Assembly: GCA_903930095.1 (NCBI GenBank)
Contig: CAIYXE010000027.1
Location: forward strand, 1-10,060
Reading direction: 5' to 3'
DNA length: 10,060 nt
Source: an uncultured Hyphomicrobiales bacterium
GTDB taxonomy: Bacteria > Pseudomonadota > Alphaproteobacteria > Rhizobiales > Aestuariivirgaceae
How positions within the stretch are numbered: position 1 is the stretch's first letter; each line of letters opens with the position of its first letter. Under the pieces are notes generated by a model. The model was not told the DNA's origin, did not search any database, and was given only the letters and a program-made list of their open reading frames with translations. Shown here one piece after another: positions 2,314 to 10,060 of the stretch. A program made the position numbers and the translations under genes.

Positions 2314-3921
2314 TCAGGCCGTGAACCACCAACGCTCGGCGATGCGCATGCCGTCGAGTTGCCAGTTGGCCGCCACCTTGCCGTGGCCCAGGTTCTTGGC
2401 ATGGGCCTCGACGTAGGAGTTGAACAGGATGTTCACAAGTCCGCCGTCGTCATGCAGGATCTGCTGCATCTCGGCATACATGGCGGCGCGCTTGGCTTCA
2501 TCCGTCTCGGAGCGGGCGGCGACGAGCAGCTCGTTGAACTTCGGATGCTTCCAGAACGTGTCGTTCCACGCAGCATCCGCCGCATAGGCCGTGGTCATCA
2601 TCCAGTCGACCGTGGGACGGCCGCTCCAGTAGGAAGCAACGAAGGGCTTCTTGAGCCAGACATTGTCCCAGTAGCCGTCATCCGGCTCACGGATCACGTT
2701 GATGTCGATGTTGCAGGCCTTGGCGTGCTCCTTCCAGAGGATGGCGGAGTCCACCGCGCCCGCGAAGGCGGCATCTGCCACCGACAGGTCGAACGAGAGG
2801 CTCTCGAGGCCTGCCTTCTTCAGATATTCCTTGGCCTTGTCGGGGTTGTAGACGTGGCGCGGCTGCGGATCGACCGCGAACTTCACCGTGGGTGCGATCG
2901 GGTTGTCGTTGCCCACCGTGCCGTGGCCGAGGAACACCTTCGCCAGCACGTCATCGCGGTTGATCGAGTGCTTGATGGCAAGCCGGACGTTCACATCGTC
3001 GAAAGGCTTCGCCGTCACGTTCATCACGTAGATGTAATGGCCGTAGCCGGTGATCTCCTGCACGGTGACGTCGGGGTTCGACTTCAGCATGTCGAGGGTC
3101 TTCAGGTCGCAGCGGTCCATGTAGTGGATCTCGCCCGAGAGCAACGCATTGGTGCGCGCCGCCACATCCTTGATCGACAGGAACTCGACCCGGTCGAACC
3201 AGCCCTTGCCAGACTTGTAGTAGTTCTCGTTCTTGGTGAAGGTCGCGGTGACGCCCGGCTCGAACTTCTCGAGCTTGTAAGCGCCGGTGCGGTTGCCGGA
3301 TTCCCAGTCCACGGTGCCATCAGCCTTCTTCGGCATGATCGGCATGTGATAGTCGGACACGGTGTAGGGGAAATCGGCGTTGCCGCCCGAGAGTTCGAAG
3401 ACGACCGTCTCGGGGCCATCGGCCTTCATGCTGGTCACTTCCTTGAGAAGCGACTTGGCGGCCGACTTCGAGTTCTCGCCAAGGTGATGCTGCAGCGAGG
3501 CGATCACGTCATCGGCGGTCACTGTCTTGCCGTCGTGGAAGGTGATGCCCTTCCTGACCTTGAACACCCACTTCTTGGCGCCGTCGGCCGGCTCGAAGCT
3601 CTCGGCCACGTCGCCGATCACGCTGCCGTCGGCATCGATCTCGGTCAGGCTGTTCGCCAGCGTGCCCCAGAGCGCCGTGCCGGTGAACTGGTCAGGATAG
3701 GTGCCAGGGTCCATGGAGTCGGTGGTGGCGCCATGGCCCACGCCGATCTTCAAGGTGCCGCCCTTCTTCGGCTCCGAAGCATGTGCCGTCGTGAACATGC
3801 TGTTGGCAGCCGCGAGGCTGACGCCAGAGGCGAGCGCCAGCTGGGTAAATTCACGCCGCGTGATGCGGCCCTTCACGGCCTGCCTGAGCGCGGTATCAAG
3901 CTTGTTCTGGATGTCGTTCAT
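2314..3921 (-). CDS. Tat-exported ABC transporter solute-binding protein, family 5 (second of two paralogues)
   Basis: This periplasmic solute-binding protein of 535 residues belongs to the extracellular family 5 group (peptide, nickel and opine binders). The N-terminus has a twin-arginine signal: TRREFTQLAL with the Arg pair at residues 22-23, a hydrophobic stretch to about 43, and a probable cleavage site after AHA (48). The mature start PKKGGTLKIGVGHG and the conserved AESFEPADGAKKWVFKVRKG and DGKTVTADDVIASL regions are typical of the family. The start has a purine-rich ribosome-binding stretch (AGGGAGAG followed by AAGAG). It closely resembles the neighbouring gene at 4174-5769 along its whole length, so the pair arose by duplication. 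It sits directly upstream of the permeases and would capture their substrate. The ligand cannot be deduced, and a dipeptide or oligopeptide is only a guess. Confidence 0.93.
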   Translation of the reverse strand: MNDIQNKLDTALRQAVKGRITRREFTQLALASGVSLAAANSMFTTAHASEPKKGGTLKIGVGHGATTDSMDPGTYPDQFTGTALWGTLANSLTEIDADGSVIGDVAESFEPADGAKKWVFKVRKGITFHDGKTVTADDVIASLQHHLGENSKSAAKSLLKEVTSMKADGPETVVFELSGGNADFPYTVSDYHMPIMPKKADGTVDWESGNRTGAYKLEKFEPGVTATFTKNENYYKSGKGWFDRVEFLSIKDVAARTNALLSGEIHYMDRCDLKTLDMLKSNPDVTVQEITGYGHYIYVMNVTAKPFDDVNVRLAIKHSINRDDVLAKVFLGHGTVGNDNPIAPTVKFAVDPQPRHVYNPDKAKEYLKKAGLESLSFDLSVADAAFAGAVDSAILWKEHAKACNIDINVIREPDDGYWDNVWLKKPFVASYWSGRPTVDWMMTTAYAADAAWNDTFWKHPKFNELLVAARSETDEAKRAAMYAEMQQILHDDGGLVNILFNSYVEAHAKNLGHGKVAANWQLDGMRIAERWWFTA

Positions 3922-4173: not shown

Positions 4174-5769
4174 TTAGGCCATCCACCAGCGATCATACAT
4201 GAAGCCGCCGTCATGGTCGAAGTCCGAGTTGAACTCACCATGGCCGATCTTGGTGGAGAGCGCGCCAACGTAGTTGTTGAACATCAGGTTGATCTGACCG
4301 CCGTCGTCGTGGACGAGCTGCTGGCACTCGGCATACATCGCCTGGCGCTTGGCCTCGTCCGTCTCCGCACGGGCCGCGACGAGCAGCTCGTTGAAGCGCG
4401 GGTTCTTCCAGCGCGTGTCGTTCCAGGCAGCATCAGCGGCGAGCGAGATCGACAGGAACGCATCCGCCGTGGGACGGCCGCCCCAGTAGCAGAGGCTCCA
4501 GGGCTTCTTGAGCCAGACGTTGTCCCAGTAGCTGTCGTTCGGTTCGCGCACGACGTTGATCTCGATGCCGGCGGCCTTGGCGTGTTCGGCCATCAGCAGT
4601 GCGGCGTCGACACCACCGGGGAAGGCGGCATCCGAAGCCGAGAGATCGACCTTCAGGTTCTCGAGGCCGGCCTTCTTGAGCAGCGACTTGGCCTTCTCCG
4701 GGTCATAGCTGTAGACCGGCTCGGCGTTGATCGCATACTTGAGCGAGGGCGACAGCGGGTTGTCGTTGCCGGGTGAGCCGTAGCCATAAAGGATCTTGTC
4801 GACCAGGTCCTGGCGGTTGATGGCCCACTTGATGGCCTGGCGCACTTCGACCTTGTCGAAGGGAGCCGTGTCGCAGTGCATGGGCGCTGTGTAATGCGCG
4901 AAGCCCGAGACGTTGTAGAGCTCGGTTTCCGGCGCGTTCTTCAGCAGGTCGATGGTCTTCACGTCGGCGCGGTCGATGTAGTGCACCTCGCCCGAGAGAT
5001 AGGCATTGGTGCGCGCGGCGACGTCGATGATCGAGAGAACCTCGATGCCGTCGAACCAGGTCGTGCCGAAGTAGTTGGGGTTGCGCTCGGCGATGAGCTT
5101 GACACCCGGCTCGAAGGACTTGAGCACATAGGGGCCAGCGCCGATGCCCTGCTCCCACTGGATCTTGCCGCCCTCGGAGGGGTACATCGACAGATGGTAG
5201 TCGGAGAGCAGATAGGGGAAGTCGGCGTTGCCGCCGCTCAGCTCAAACACCACCGTGTCCGGACCATCAGCCTTGACGGCCGTGACGTTCGAGAGAACGC
5301 CCTTGGCGGGAGACTTGGAGTCGGGTCCGATGTGATAGTTGATGGTGGCCACCACGTCATCGGCGGTCAGCGCCTTGCCGTTGTGGAAGGTGATGCCCTT
5401 GCGGATCTTGAAGATCCACTTCTTGGCGCCGTCAGCCGGCTCGAAGCTCTCCGCGACGTGGGGAACGACATCGTTCTTCTGGTTGATCTGGACGAGCGGC
5501 GCACCCATCACCGACTTGCCCCAGGCGAAAGTGAAGCCGTTGGACCAGGTGGAGGGATCGAGCGAGTCCGTCGTCTGGCCGTGGCCGACAGCTGACTTGA
5601 ACACGCCGCCCTTCTTGGGCTCAGCGCGGGCGGCGGTGGCGAACAGCGTCTGGGCGGCCGCCAGCGTCATGCCGGAGGCCAGCGCGAACTGGATGAAATC
5701 GCGGCGGGACAGCCGGCCGAGGCCAACGGCCTTCTGCGCGGCCTTCATCTTCATTTCGAATTCGGTCAT
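4174..5769 (-). CDS. Tat-exported ABC transporter solute-binding protein, family 5 (first of two paralogues)
   Basis: This is a periplasmic solute-binding protein of 531 residues, the same family and layout as its neighbour at 2314-3921. The twin-arginine signal is LSRRDFIQFAL (Arg pair at 22-23), followed by a hydrophobic stretch and a likely cleavage after ARA (49), just before EPKKGG. Segments shared nearly unchanged with the paralogue include VAESFEPADGAKKW, KADGPDTVVFELSGGNADFPY, NPRFNELLVAARAETDEAKR and YWDNVWLKKP. The most divergent parts are the stretch after the mature N-terminus (about 70-95) and the C-terminal tail, which may shift ligand preference. The ATG at 5769 is preceded by AAGGAG at good spacing. 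A strong terminator follows. It may feed the same permease pair as the second paralogue. The ligand is unknown. Confidence 0.93.
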   Translation of the reverse strand: MTEFEMKMKAAQKAVGLGRLSRRDFIQFALASGMTLAAAQTLFATAARAEPKKGGVFKSAVGHGQTTDSLDPSTWSNGFTFAWGKSVMGAPLVQINQKNDVVPHVAESFEPADGAKKWIFKIRKGITFHNGKALTADDVVATINYHIGPDSKSPAKGVLSNVTAVKADGPDTVVFELSGGNADFPYLLSDYHLSMYPSEGGKIQWEQGIGAGPYVLKSFEPGVKLIAERNPNYFGTTWFDGIEVLSIIDVAARTNAYLSGEVHYIDRADVKTIDLLKNAPETELYNVSGFAHYTAPMHCDTAPFDKVEVRQAIKWAINRQDLVDKILYGYGSPGNDNPLSPSLKYAINAEPVYSYDPEKAKSLLKKAGLENLKVDLSASDAAFPGGVDAALLMAEHAKAAGIEINVVREPNDSYWDNVWLKKPWSLCYWGGRPTADAFLSISLAADAAWNDTRWKNPRFNELLVAARAETDEAKRQAMYAECQQLVHDDGGQINLMFNNYVGALSTKIGHGEFNSDFDHDGGFMYDRWWMA

Positions 5770-7932: not shown

Positions 7933-9114
7933 TCAGGCCGCCTGCGCTTCAAGTGCGCGGGCTGCACGGTCGAGCTTGTCGACCGCCTCCGCGATGTCGG
8001 CGTCGGTCACGATCAGGGGCGGCAGCAGGCGCAGAACATTATCGCCCGCGCCAATGGTGAGAAGATGCTGGTCGAGGGCTGCGGCCTGAAGAGCGGTATT
8101 GGGCACCTTGCACTTGATGCCGACCATCAGCCCCGCGCCGCGAACATCCTCGATGATGGTGGGGTGCTGGTCCTTCAGCGCGGCGAGCTTCTGCTTCAAT
8201 GTCAGGGCGCGCTGCTGCACGCTCTCGAGAAAGCCCGGCGCCAGCACCACGTCGAGCACGGCGTTGCCCACCGCGGTTGCCAGCGGATTGCCGCCGAAGG
8301 TGGAACCATGCGTTCCCGCCGTCATGCCGGAGGCGGCCTTTTCGGTGGCAAGGCAAGCGCCCAGCGGAAAGCCACCGCCGATGCCCTTGGCAATCGCCAT
8401 GATGTCAGGCGCAACACCCGCCCATTCATGCGCAAAGAGCTTGCCGGTGCGGCCGATGCCGCACTGGACCTCATCGAAGATCAGCAGCAGGCCATGGGCA
8501 TCGCACAGCTCGCGCAGGCCCTTCAGGCACTGCGGCGGCACCGGGCGGATGCCGCCCTCGCCCTGCACAGGTTCGATCAGGATGCCAGCCGTCTCAGGGC
8601 CAATCGCGGCCTTCAATGCGTCATGATCGCCGAAGGGCACCTGGTCGAAGCCTTCGACCTTGGGGCCGAAGCCCTCGAGATATTTCGCCTGGCCGCCCGC
8701 CGCGATGGTGGCAAGTGTCCGCCCATGGAACGCGCCTTCGAAGGTGATGAGGCGATACTTCTCCGGGTGGCCATTGGCAGAATGATACTTCCGCGCCATC
8801 TTGATCGCGCATTCGAGCGCCTCAGCACCGGAGTTGGTGAAGAACACCGTGTCGGCAAAGCTGTGTTCGATCAGCTGCAGCGCCAGCTTTTCCTGGCCCG
8901 GCATCTGATAAACATTCGAGGTGTGCCACACCTTGTTGGCCTGAGTGATGAGCGCCTGAAGAAGATGCGGGTGGCGATGGCCGCAGCTGGTCACCGCCAC
9001 GCCGGCGCCGAAATCGAGATAGGCTTCCCCTTCCGGTGTGAACAATCGCGCGCCCTCGCCCCGCTCGAAAGAGACCTTCGCTCTGGCATAAGTGGGAAGA
9101 ACGGGCGTGATCAT
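7933..9114 (-). CDS. argD: Acetylornithine aminotransferase
   Basis: This PLP-dependent class III aminotransferase transfers the amino group of glutamate to N-acetylglutamate semialdehyde in arginine synthesis. Many family members also serve as succinyldiaminopimelate transaminase in lysine synthesis. The product has 393 residues. NSGAEA (94-99) and FHGRT (129-133) help bind the cofactor phosphate and ring. [11 protein letters not shown] (214-224) holds the Asp that pairs with the pyridine nitrogen, and K243 in [10 protein letters not shown] is the Schiff-base lysine. [11 protein letters not shown] (267-277) is also conserved. The start at 9114 has AGGA 8 bases upstream and yields the usual [12 protein letters not shown]-terminus. 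The frame is open a further 65 codons to 9309, but that stretch covers the promoter and leader hairpin. It is the first gene of the argD-argF-hslO operon. Confidence 0.96.
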
Positions 9115-9142
9115 GGCGGAATCCTGGGCTGTCGAAATCAAA

Positions 9143-9171
9143 AGGCGCCCGCCGTTGAATGGTGGGCGCCT
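9143..9171 (-). terminator. Leader hairpin of argD, attenuator-like
   Basis: In the minus-strand transcript, AGGCGCCC and GGGCGCCT form an 8-bp perfect stem. It can be extended by two more pairs past an A-C mismatch, leaving a 7-base loop (ATTCAAC). It is followed by TTTTGATTT. It starts about six bases after the predicted argD transcription start and ends about 28 bases before the start codon. The shape fits an intrinsic terminator or attenuator inside the leader, or a structure that protects the 5' end. No leader peptide is visible between promoter and hairpin. Confidence 0.5.
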
Positions 9172-9183
9172 CGGAGGAAAAAC

Positions 9184-9212
9184 CTTATAATTCCAAGGCC
9201 GCGCACGGTCAA
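9184..9212 (-). promoter_or_regulatory. Predicted sigma70-type promoter of argD-argF-hslO
   Basis: On the minus strand, TTGACC (9212-9207) and TATAAG (9189-9184) are separated by exactly 17 bases. They match the sigma70 consensus well (5 of 6 at -35, 5 of 6 at -10). Transcription would start near 9177, giving a leader of about 63 bases. This is the only good promoter match seen for the operon. Confidence 0.65.
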
Positions 9213-9263
9213 TCACGGCTTGGGGGCCAGATTGATTCACGCGATCCCGGCCCTGATTCACGG

Positions 9264-9272
9264 TTGTCCACA
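9264..9272 (+). promoter_or_regulatory. DnaA-box-like sequence
   Basis: TTGTCCACA differs by one base from the DnaA consensus TTATNCACA. It lies between two GANTC sites, about 277 bases before the gcrA start. In Caulobacter DnaA is known to activate gcrA, which makes the position suggestive. A single box with one mismatch in a GC-rich genome could also be chance. Confidence 0.4.
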
Positions 9273-9313
9273 CTGAGTCAAAACAGCGCATGGACCACCG
9301 ATTCGTCACGCTG

Positions 9314-9332
9314 GTAAGGTTTCATTAACCAT
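9314..9332 (+). promoter_or_regulatory. Predicted CtrA box upstream of gcrA
   Basis: GTAA-N7-TTAACCAT matches the CtrA consensus TTAA-N7-TTAAC at all positions but one (G for T in the first half-site). The extended TTAACCAT half is typical of alphaproteobacterial CtrA sites. It lies 217 bases upstream of the gcrA start codon, inside the GANTC cluster. In Caulobacter CtrA represses gcrA, so a conserved regulatory loop is plausible here. Confidence 0.55.
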
Positions 9333-9548
9333 GCGGCAGGGTCTGGAAACTGGGGAAAACAGGTCCGATTCCAGCGCCAAAGGTTGCGGGTGAGTTACCG
9401 CGTATTGTAGTGATGTGGCGTCAGGCTACGAGATGTAGCGCTTAACTGTCAGTTTTGTTGTCGAACGCGCTGGAACGGATCTGGGTCCGGCGAGGCATGA
9501 GGGATTCCGTTGTTGCACGAGCAGGAAATCAATCTTGGAGGGGCGAAA

Positions 9549-10060
9549 TTGTCCTGGACAGACGAGCGCGTCGAACTCTTGAAGAAGCTCTGGACGGAAG
9601 GGCTGAGCGCCAGCCAGATCGCCGGACGGCTCGGCTCCGGCGTGACCCGCAATGCCGTGATCGGCAAGGTGCACCGCCTCAACCTGTCGGGCCGCGTGCA
9701 GCAGCAGCGCAGCGCCCAGCCGAGGGCGCCCCGCAAGCAGCGTGAGCCGAGCCTCGCCCCGCGTGCGGGCGGCAGCATGCCGAGCATGCCCACTGCCGGC
9801 AACAACGCGCTGAAGCCGATGATGCGGGCCGAGGTCCATGTCCGGCCTGCCGCCATCCCCGAACCGCAGCCCTTGCGCTTGGTCGATCTTCCGCAGGACG
9901 GCCGGGTGACGATCCTTCACCTCTCCGACAAGACCTGCAAATGGCCGATCGGCGACCCGGGCAGCGAGGAGTTCTGCTTCTGCGGTCATGGCCCCCGTGA
10001 AGGCTCGCCCTACTGCGAGTATCATGCCCGGCTCGCCTACCAGCCGATGCAGGACCGGCG
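9549..10060 (+). CDS. gcrA: GcrA cell cycle regulator (3' end just outside window)
   Basis: GcrA is a transcription regulator that binds RNA polymerase holoenzyme through sigma70 and stimulates promoters carrying methylated GANTC sites. The N-terminal domain SWTDERVELLKKLWTEGLS (2-20) and the helix-turn-helix-like SQIAGRLG ... TRNAVIGKVHRLNLSGR (22-49) are classic. A basic, Pro-rich linker follows (about 50-110). The C-terminal sigma-interacting domain has TCKWPIGDPGSEEFCFCGHG (129-148) and CEYHARLAYQP (156-166), with C130, C143, C145, C156 and H159. The start is TTG, preceded by GGAGGGG at 5 bases; the upstream ATG at 9496 is in another frame. 170 codons are present, close to the length of Caulobacter GcrA, so only a few residues should be missing. 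It is divergent from argD. Confidence 0.96.
   Translation, partial: MSWTDERVELLKKLWTEGLSASQIAGRLGSGVTRNAVIGKVHRLNLSGRVQQQRSAQPRAPRKQREPSLAPRAGGSMPSMPTAGNNALKPMMRAEVHVRPAAIPEPQPLRLVDLPQDGRVTILHLSDKTCKWPIGDPGSEEFCFCGHGPREGSPYCEYHARLAYQPMQDR

Follow-up and report, generated by a model that had tools for sequence, protein, structure and literature searches.

The closest described counterpart of the locus analysed here is gcrA of Agrobacterium tumefaciens, a ccrM-bearing host in which a GANTC cluster likewise lies upstream of the orthologous gene, with six sites in 250 bp (PMC11514494). A gcrA promoter-lacZ fusion is less active in A. tumefaciens when methylated, and the same is seen in E. coli with active CcrM, a host from which, as the authors point out, Alphaproteobacteria-specific regulators are absent (PMC11514494). 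Overexpression of ccrM lowers gcrA mRNA in A. tumefaciens (PMC11514494), and the authors propose that gcrA is activated by transient hemimethylation after replication (PMC11514494, Martin et al. 2024). Methylation control of gcrA in Agrobacterium is therefore already known from published work.

In Caulobacter, the ctrA P1, podJ and mipZ promoters also contain GANTC, and their activity follows methylation state or cell-cycle stage (PMC4287350, PMC3667746). Transcription starts with a GANTC between −10 and −35 are activated at 40–60 min, while those with a GANTC outside this interval are at their lowest then, and in ctrA P1 the site lies at about −28 (PMC4287350). These Caulobacter promoters are targets of GcrA (PMC4287350, PMC3667746), whereas at the present locus the gene concerned is gcrA itself. 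In Sinorhizobium meliloti, gcrA is divergent from argD, as it is here, and has a long leader, a transcript that starts at −122 from the AUG (PMC4414408) and a CtrA motif; there, unlike here, the transcription start falls within the CtrA motif, and the region is also acted on by NtrX and by the small RNA EcpR1 (PMC3616915, PMC4414408, PMC9223101). Intergenic over-representation of GANTC by more than 1.5-fold is general in ccrM-bearing Alphaproteobacteria (PMC3973325). GANTC upstream of alphaproteobacterial cell-cycle genes have been counted, with no conclusion on control drawn (PMC2877005), and no report of order-wide GANTC conservation at gcrA was found in the titles and abstract openings searched.

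The window is the whole stretch of 10,060 nucleotides analysed here, from an assembly of an uncultured Hyphomicrobiales bacterium (820 contigs, 89.8% complete, 5.8% contamination). The closest named ArgD records, among the best 80 of 589, are from Aestuariivirga, at 92 and 88% identity. The GANTC cluster occupies the intergenic spacer at 9115–9548, between two divergent genes:

7933..9114, minus strand: argD, acetylornithine transaminase, divergent from gcrA (NCBIfam PRK01278)
9549..10060, plus strand: 5′ part of gcrA, cut by the contig end (PF07750; NF050816 below cut-off, the protein being cut)

The start codon of gcrA is the TTG at 9549 or an in-frame TTG at 9510. Rfam gives no matches in the window at its gathering threshold. 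Elsewhere in the window, two adjacent and related substrate-binding proteins of dipeptide/nickel-type ABC transporters are encoded at 2314–3921 and 4174–5769 (minus strand), adjoining permease genes at about 245–2229.

Seven GANTC sites stand in the 434 bp of the intergenic spacer (9119, 9234, 9255, 9275, 9300, 9367 and 9503) compared to 12 in the remaining ~9.6 kb, which gives 16.1 per kb against ~1.25 per kb, a difference of ~13-fold. The earlier note on this DNA had estimated about a dozen sites outside the spacer, a more than tenfold difference in density, and spacings of 21, 20 and 25 bp between the four central sites, and exact counting bears out all of these figures. Every other 434-bp stretch of the window holds at most two GANTC. 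Dinucleotide shuffles of the spacer contain 1.78 sites on average and reach at least seven in only 3 of 5000, so the enrichment over a shuffled background is real and chance composition is rejected. Part of the contrast between spacer and window arises because GANTC is scarce elsewhere, and the cluster nonetheless exceeds its own shuffles. The whole window holds 19 GANTC compared to 48.6 in shuffles, and 700 kb of a genome of the same genus (G017) hold 805 compared to ~2185 expected from base composition, so that GANTC is scarce genome-wide.

A density of this kind is rare in the DNA sampled, including the unrelated intergenic regions in which a similar density would have spoken against the earlier note. 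In the 700 kb of G017, four places have at least five GANTC per 434 bp, with gcrA at the top with eight; the remaining three are a repeat with six sites in 77 bp and two others with six and five. This repeat (G017:C22:280241-280317) is of low complexity, has mostly 15-bp steps and is denser per base than the gcrA cluster, and it is probably not regulatory. In 300 kb of the same genome, simple ORF calls leave 102 intergenic stretches of 100 bp or more; 100 of them hold 0–2 sites, the exceptions being gcrA and the low-complexity repeat. In 97.5 kb of the window's own genome, not an unbiased sample since it includes a contig chosen for ccrM, two places reach at least five per 434 bp, namely gcrA and the start of ccrM. 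Two places in G017 have four GANTC within ~60 bp (C12:197766-197826) and ~160 bp (C12:147110-147269), lying between reading frames or at their edge, and are candidates for further methylation-controlled promoters.

The cluster could in principle be a by-product of lower GC and of the genome-wide scarcity of GANTC, with spacer DNA merely tolerating the site. The scarcity itself and the general intergenic over-representation in ccrM-bearing Alphaproteobacteria (PMC3973325) fit this idea, but the shuffles of the spacer, the low counts in other intergenic stretches and the conserved positions of the sites (see below) do not. It is largely refuted already and can be given almost no weight.

Conservation was followed in several sets of loci. 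The genus set contains the gcrA region of 36 of 37 genomes (G008 was left out because its match is split); its alignments contain 35 loci, L032 having too little upstream DNA, with 25 of them displayed in one alignment. The named order loci come from the best 80 of 589 records by ArgD likeness, of which six are in the genus (L034–L039); eight of the other 74 have no nearby gcrA start, leaving 66. The fairest set consists of 25 representatives of other families in the order, because the genus and named loci contain many close relatives; some named loci are also the same records as genomes in other sets. The class set matched in 47 of 76 genomes; two of these, the window's genome and one other, belong to the order itself. 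Nineteen of the 45 matching genomes of other orders, for the most part those with the strongest matches, form the set used, and the 26 left out include G096 (contig edge) and G131. Some genus, order and class genomes encode a second, diverged GcrA-like protein (G027:C2:26600-27112, G040:C5:225774-226196 and G069:C1:1878811-1879269).

Over the 400 bp that precede the gcrA Met codon, GANTC occurs at 13.0 per kb in the genus (n=36), 10.6 per kb in the 66 named order loci (from the best 80 of 589), 8.2 per kb in the families (n=25) and 3.4 per kb in other orders (n=19). Seven composition-matched control palindromes occur at 1.6–5.5 per kb in the genus and order sets and at 1.2–5.5 per kb over all sets. 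GANTC exceeds the mean of these controls in 21 of 25 families (p=1e-4), while in other orders it does so in 10 of 19 genomes, an enrichment that is not significant (p=0.16). Ten of the 25 families have fewer than three GANTC upstream of gcrA, and one has none at all.

The individual sites are kept to different degrees, and the following elements are needed to describe them:

9234..9304, no strand assigned: four central GANTC sites at 9234, 9255, 9275 and 9300 (position count and genus alignment)
9274..9290, plus strand: 17-bp block TGAGTCAAAACAGCGCA holding site 9275 (pattern search in genus loci)
9503..9507, plus strand: GATTC in the gcrA 5′ leader (position count and genus/order comparison)

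Site 9275 is aligned in all 35 genus loci and leader site 9503 in 34 of them. Site 9300 falls in one set of alignment columns in 27 of 35 loci and is shifted in some others, and sites 9234 and 9255 are present in 11 of 35. A GANTC within 85 bp of the gcrA Met codon is found in 35 of 36 genus loci, 62 of 66 named order loci (from the best 80 of 589) and 17 of 25 family loci. The sites thus recur in relatives, as the earlier note would expect; the cluster is real and probably under selection. The earlier note also took the central spacings for about two helical turns, which would place the sites on similar faces of the DNA. This description suits 21 and 20 bp, but 25 bp is ~2.4 turns. In the genus, the last two spacings (20 and 25 bp) are themselves well kept, while the equivalent of the 9234–9255 spacing is 21–22 bp in 8 of the 11 loci with both sites but 13, 23 or 10 bp in the other 3. 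The case for similar faces is therefore weak, and helical phasing was rejected on the genus spacings.

The position of the sites relative to the gcrA promoter depends on two further elements:

9367..9371, plus strand: GATTC, ~53 bp upstream of the putative gcrA start of transcription (position count)
9384..9413, plus strand: putative gcrA core promoter, TTGCGG, 18-bp spacer, TAGTGA (homology with the S. meliloti start)

The core promoter and the predicted start of transcription near 9420 were placed by laying the −122 start of S. meliloti onto the relatives, a comparison that did not include S. meliloti sequence. A consensus scanner found no sigma70-type promoter in 9000–9700, so the gcrA and argD promoters both rest on homology and conservation. 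In relatives, the TTG of the first hexamer would be the −35, with GACTC abutting it and GAGTC in the promoter spacer near −28. The element GACTCTTG-N5-GAGTC surrounds this −35 box in 55 of 66 named order loci (from the best 80 of 589), which are not independent cases, having been chosen by ArgD likeness with many close relatives among them. In the form GAYTCTTG-N5-GAGTC, the element is counted in these 55 loci, in 3 of 25 family loci, 8 of 36 genus loci and none of the 19 other-order loci, and GAYTCTTG alone in 8 of 25 families.

Six GANTC are present at L096, the locus from A. larrymoorei, with GACTCTTG-N5-GAGTC among them. The window lacks this arrangement. No GANTC abuts its −35, from which the GATTC at 9367 is 12 bp away, and none lies in the promoter spacer, where the corresponding position reads GAGTT (9392–9396), one base off GAGTC; the promoter-spacer site has thus been lost. 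It is kept in L005 to L010 and L012 and absent in L011 and L013, and in 7 of 35 genus loci the ~60 bp preceding the putative start are free of GANTC. The promoter-spacer GAGTC is a feature of the relatives, not one shown to be needed.

The earlier note thought it possible that gcrA is also controlled by its own product. In such a scheme GcrA would act with sigma70 at a methylated GANTC between the −35 and −10 of gcrA. The element TTG-N5-GAGTC, which puts a site in the promoter spacer, is present in 59 of 66 named order loci (from the best 80 of 589), and in Caulobacter it is the promoters with GANTC in this interval, such as ctrA P1 with its site at about −28, that are activated at 40–60 min (PMC4287350). 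However, no more than 6 of 25 families and 19 of 36 genus loci have the element, it is lost in the window, and methylation represses in Agrobacterium and also in E. coli (PMC11514494). Two GcrA papers searched for terms of autoregulation contain none. Autoregulation is improbable, and because of the Caulobacter timing (PMC4287350), activation by GcrA is a live rival for the relatives that keep the promoter-spacer site.

Several other elements are interspersed with the GANTC sites upstream of gcrA:

9264..9272, plus strand: DnaA-box-like TTGTCCACA (DnaA box forms of PMC4285127)
9314..9332, plus strand: CtrA-like site GTAA-N7-TTAACCAT (motif as in PMC4287350)
9350..9360, plus strand: CTGGGGAAAAC, containing the reverse complement of TCCCCA (W-box consensus of PMC4285127)

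Within 360 bp upstream of gcrA, 22 of 36 genus loci have a TCCACA core on one strand or the other. The CtrA-like site of the window has one mismatch to TTAA-N7-TTAA, which is perfect in several genus loci, and xTAA-N7-TTAA is found in 35 of 36, the exception (L032) having a short upstream region. TCCCCA is a weak DnaA W-box of Caulobacter (PMC4285127), and [CT]TGGGGAAAA is present upstream of gcrA in 32 of 36 genus, 9 of 25 family and 59 of 66 named order loci (from the best 80 of 589), and in none of the 19 other-order loci. DnaA and CtrA may therefore bind here, judging by these motifs. The 17-bp block TGAGTCAAAACAGCGCA is found by pattern in 31 of 36 genus loci. When up to four mismatches are allowed, a single copy is present in the 700 kb of G017 and another in the 97.5 kb sampled from the window's genome; both lie at gcrA, and none was found in the scanned order loci outside the genus. 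The features that set Aestuariivirga apart from Agrobacterium are additional upstream sites together with a CtrA-like site and this 17-bp block.

These elements suggest another explanation, in which the sites upstream of 9310 are operators of other proteins (of the block, DnaA and CtrA) and the GANTC are carried along or allow methylation to influence these proteins. All positions of site 9275, flanks included, are invariant in the genus alignment, which suggests a candidate protein operator that contains GANTC, and conservation of the block extends far outside its GANTC, with a single occurrence in 700 kb. At the promoter-spacer site, moreover, the middle base (0.77) is as conserved as the fixed bases (0.60–0.91). 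Proteins such as MucR shield GANTC from CcrM. MucR is mentioned in connection with GANTC shielding in PMC7987155. On the other side, the fixed bases of site 9300 (0.83–0.91) are more conserved than its middle base (0.69) and flanks (0.31–0.57), although the alignment splits this site, and the middle base of the leader site is T, G or C (9, 4 and 2 times) in 15 family loci, being nearly always T in the genus and named loci. The evidence that methylation itself is what selection acts on is thus mixed, and the operator explanation, while unlikely, keeps an appreciable share of the probability.

The argD side of the spacer contains the following features:

9119..9123, plus strand: GAATC adjoining the argD start codon (position count, alignment)
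9143..9171, minus strand: argD leader hairpin resembling a terminator, with a T-rich tail (hairpin search locus by locus)
9184..9212, minus strand: putative argD promoter TTGACC-17-TATAAG (homology and conservation)

The earlier note suggested that, through its neighbouring promoter, arginine synthesis could also be tied to the cell cycle. The divergent region is indeed shared, and the conserved block lies only 25–83 bp beyond the argD −35. However, this distance is not kept (sd 17.9, 31 loci), while that from the block to the gcrA Met codon is 273 bp with an sd of 5.4 and a range of 262–295 (31 loci); because the conserved 9275 site holds its distance to gcrA and not to argD, argD was rejected as the target of the cluster. 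There is no GANTC within the putative argD −35/−10 of the window, and site 9119 is absent from the ten nearest aligned relatives (L005–L014), with L018 and L020 having a GANTC at the same end of the spacer. The word argD is also absent from the main text of PMC11514494. Control of argD by methylation is accordingly very improbable, and the owner of the cluster is gcrA.

From the putative argD promoter, transcription is predicted to start near 9177. GGTCAA (its −35 on the plus strand) is present in 35 of 36 genus loci; the consensus scanner missed this promoter because its rule needs a T ending the second hexamer. As a means of argD control, the leader hairpin between this putative promoter and the argD start codon is the stronger candidate. 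Comparable hairpins are found in 35 of 35 genus, 14 of 18 family and 51 of 66 named order loci (from the best 80 of 589). The same test gave 0 genus, 0 named (from the best 80 of 589) and 1 family hairpin in the gcrA leader, and 1 genus, 13 named (from the best 80 of 589) and 0 family hairpins in the mid-spacer. The stems vary in sequence yet pair, which suggests a selected structure; RNAalifold gave a weak consensus on the argD leaders, which aligned poorly. That the hairpin is an attenuator is a guess, and the literature search found no report of argD attenuation or an argD terminator in rhizobia.

The reading of the cluster as a target of methylation presupposes CcrM, and the window's genome carries a ccrM gene, as identified by its domains: a 377-aa protein encoded at L001, with PF01555 and RAMA, whose best NCBIfam match is CcrM NF050803, at 625 bits, below the cut-off of 830. 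The absence of ccrM, which the earlier note named as a point against itself, is thus not observed. A second GANTC cluster lies at the ccrM start (L130, G000:C661, 2417–2809), with five sites upstream and two within the likely coding start. The 400 bp upstream of ccrM hold 3–6 GANTC in all 30 genus loci examined (from 30 of 37 genomes, GANTC alone being counted), and TTAACCA stands near the upstream GANTC of ccrM in nine genus sequences inspected. It has earlier been proposed from GANTC conservation that ccrM is a core GcrA target (PMC7987155).

A relation of the cluster to the replication origin was given a light test only, by hemE position. In rhizobia, hemE is an origin marker. The two genes are on different contigs in G017 and G027, ~0.84–0.85 Mb apart on the same contig in G048 and G055, and at 3.60 and 0.51 Mb of a 3.74-Mb contig in G069. 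The origin reading found no support.

Taken with the precedent at the orthologous Agrobacterium promoter (PMC11514494), which by analogy lends weight to the earlier note's proposal that gcrA is under methylation control, these observations make it reasonably probable that the cluster renders the gcrA promoter methylation-repressed, with relief when the sites are hemimethylated behind the fork. Fully methylated GANTC both at and upstream of the core promoter would lower gcrA transcription. Passage of the replication fork would leave the sites hemimethylated until CcrM acts again, and gcrA transcription would rise in this interval. In the genus, such a switch would be layered with the CtrA-like and DnaA-box-like sites, so that gcrA may read replication, DnaA and CtrA together. 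In the window, which is without the core spacer site, such an effect would have to depend on the sites that are left.

This proposed methylation switch is supported by the density of GANTC compared to controls, by the conservation of the sites, by the presence of ccrM and by the Agrobacterium reporter data. Against it stand the loss of the promoter-spacer GAGTC, the seven genus loci with no GANTC close upstream of the start, the restriction of the composite element to 3 of 25 families, the ten families in which gcrA has two upstream sites at most, and site 9275, whose invariant flanks suggest a protein operator. GANTC is presumably methylated in this organism, and the direction of the effect, repression by methylation, is carried over from Agrobacterium by homology.

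In a wider and tentative reading, a large part of the Hyphomicrobiales has a dedicated gcrA switch, while other lineages, including the window's genome, have dropped core sites and lean on an upstream array; this is possible, though the odds are against it. With GAYTC abutting the −35 and GAGTC just behind it, methyl groups would sit on both edges of the sigma70 −35 contact. Together with the GANTC-rich ccrM promoter, the switch would form a loop of two genes, with CcrM repressing the gene whose product reads CcrM methylation; fork passage would set the timing of this loop, and CtrA and DnaA would gate it. As far as the literature was searched, what is new is the extent of the cluster over the genus and much of the order, the −35 geometry in many relatives, the partial loss of the cluster in the window's genome and the matching sites at ccrM. 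If the methylation switch is right, control of gcrA by methylation, shown so far in one Agrobacterium species, would be older and wider in the Hyphomicrobiales. The sites to mutate are then named, the repression of gcrA by CcrM and the GANTC-rich ccrM promoter region would make a testable loop, and the lineages in which core sites are kept or lost would provide a natural series.
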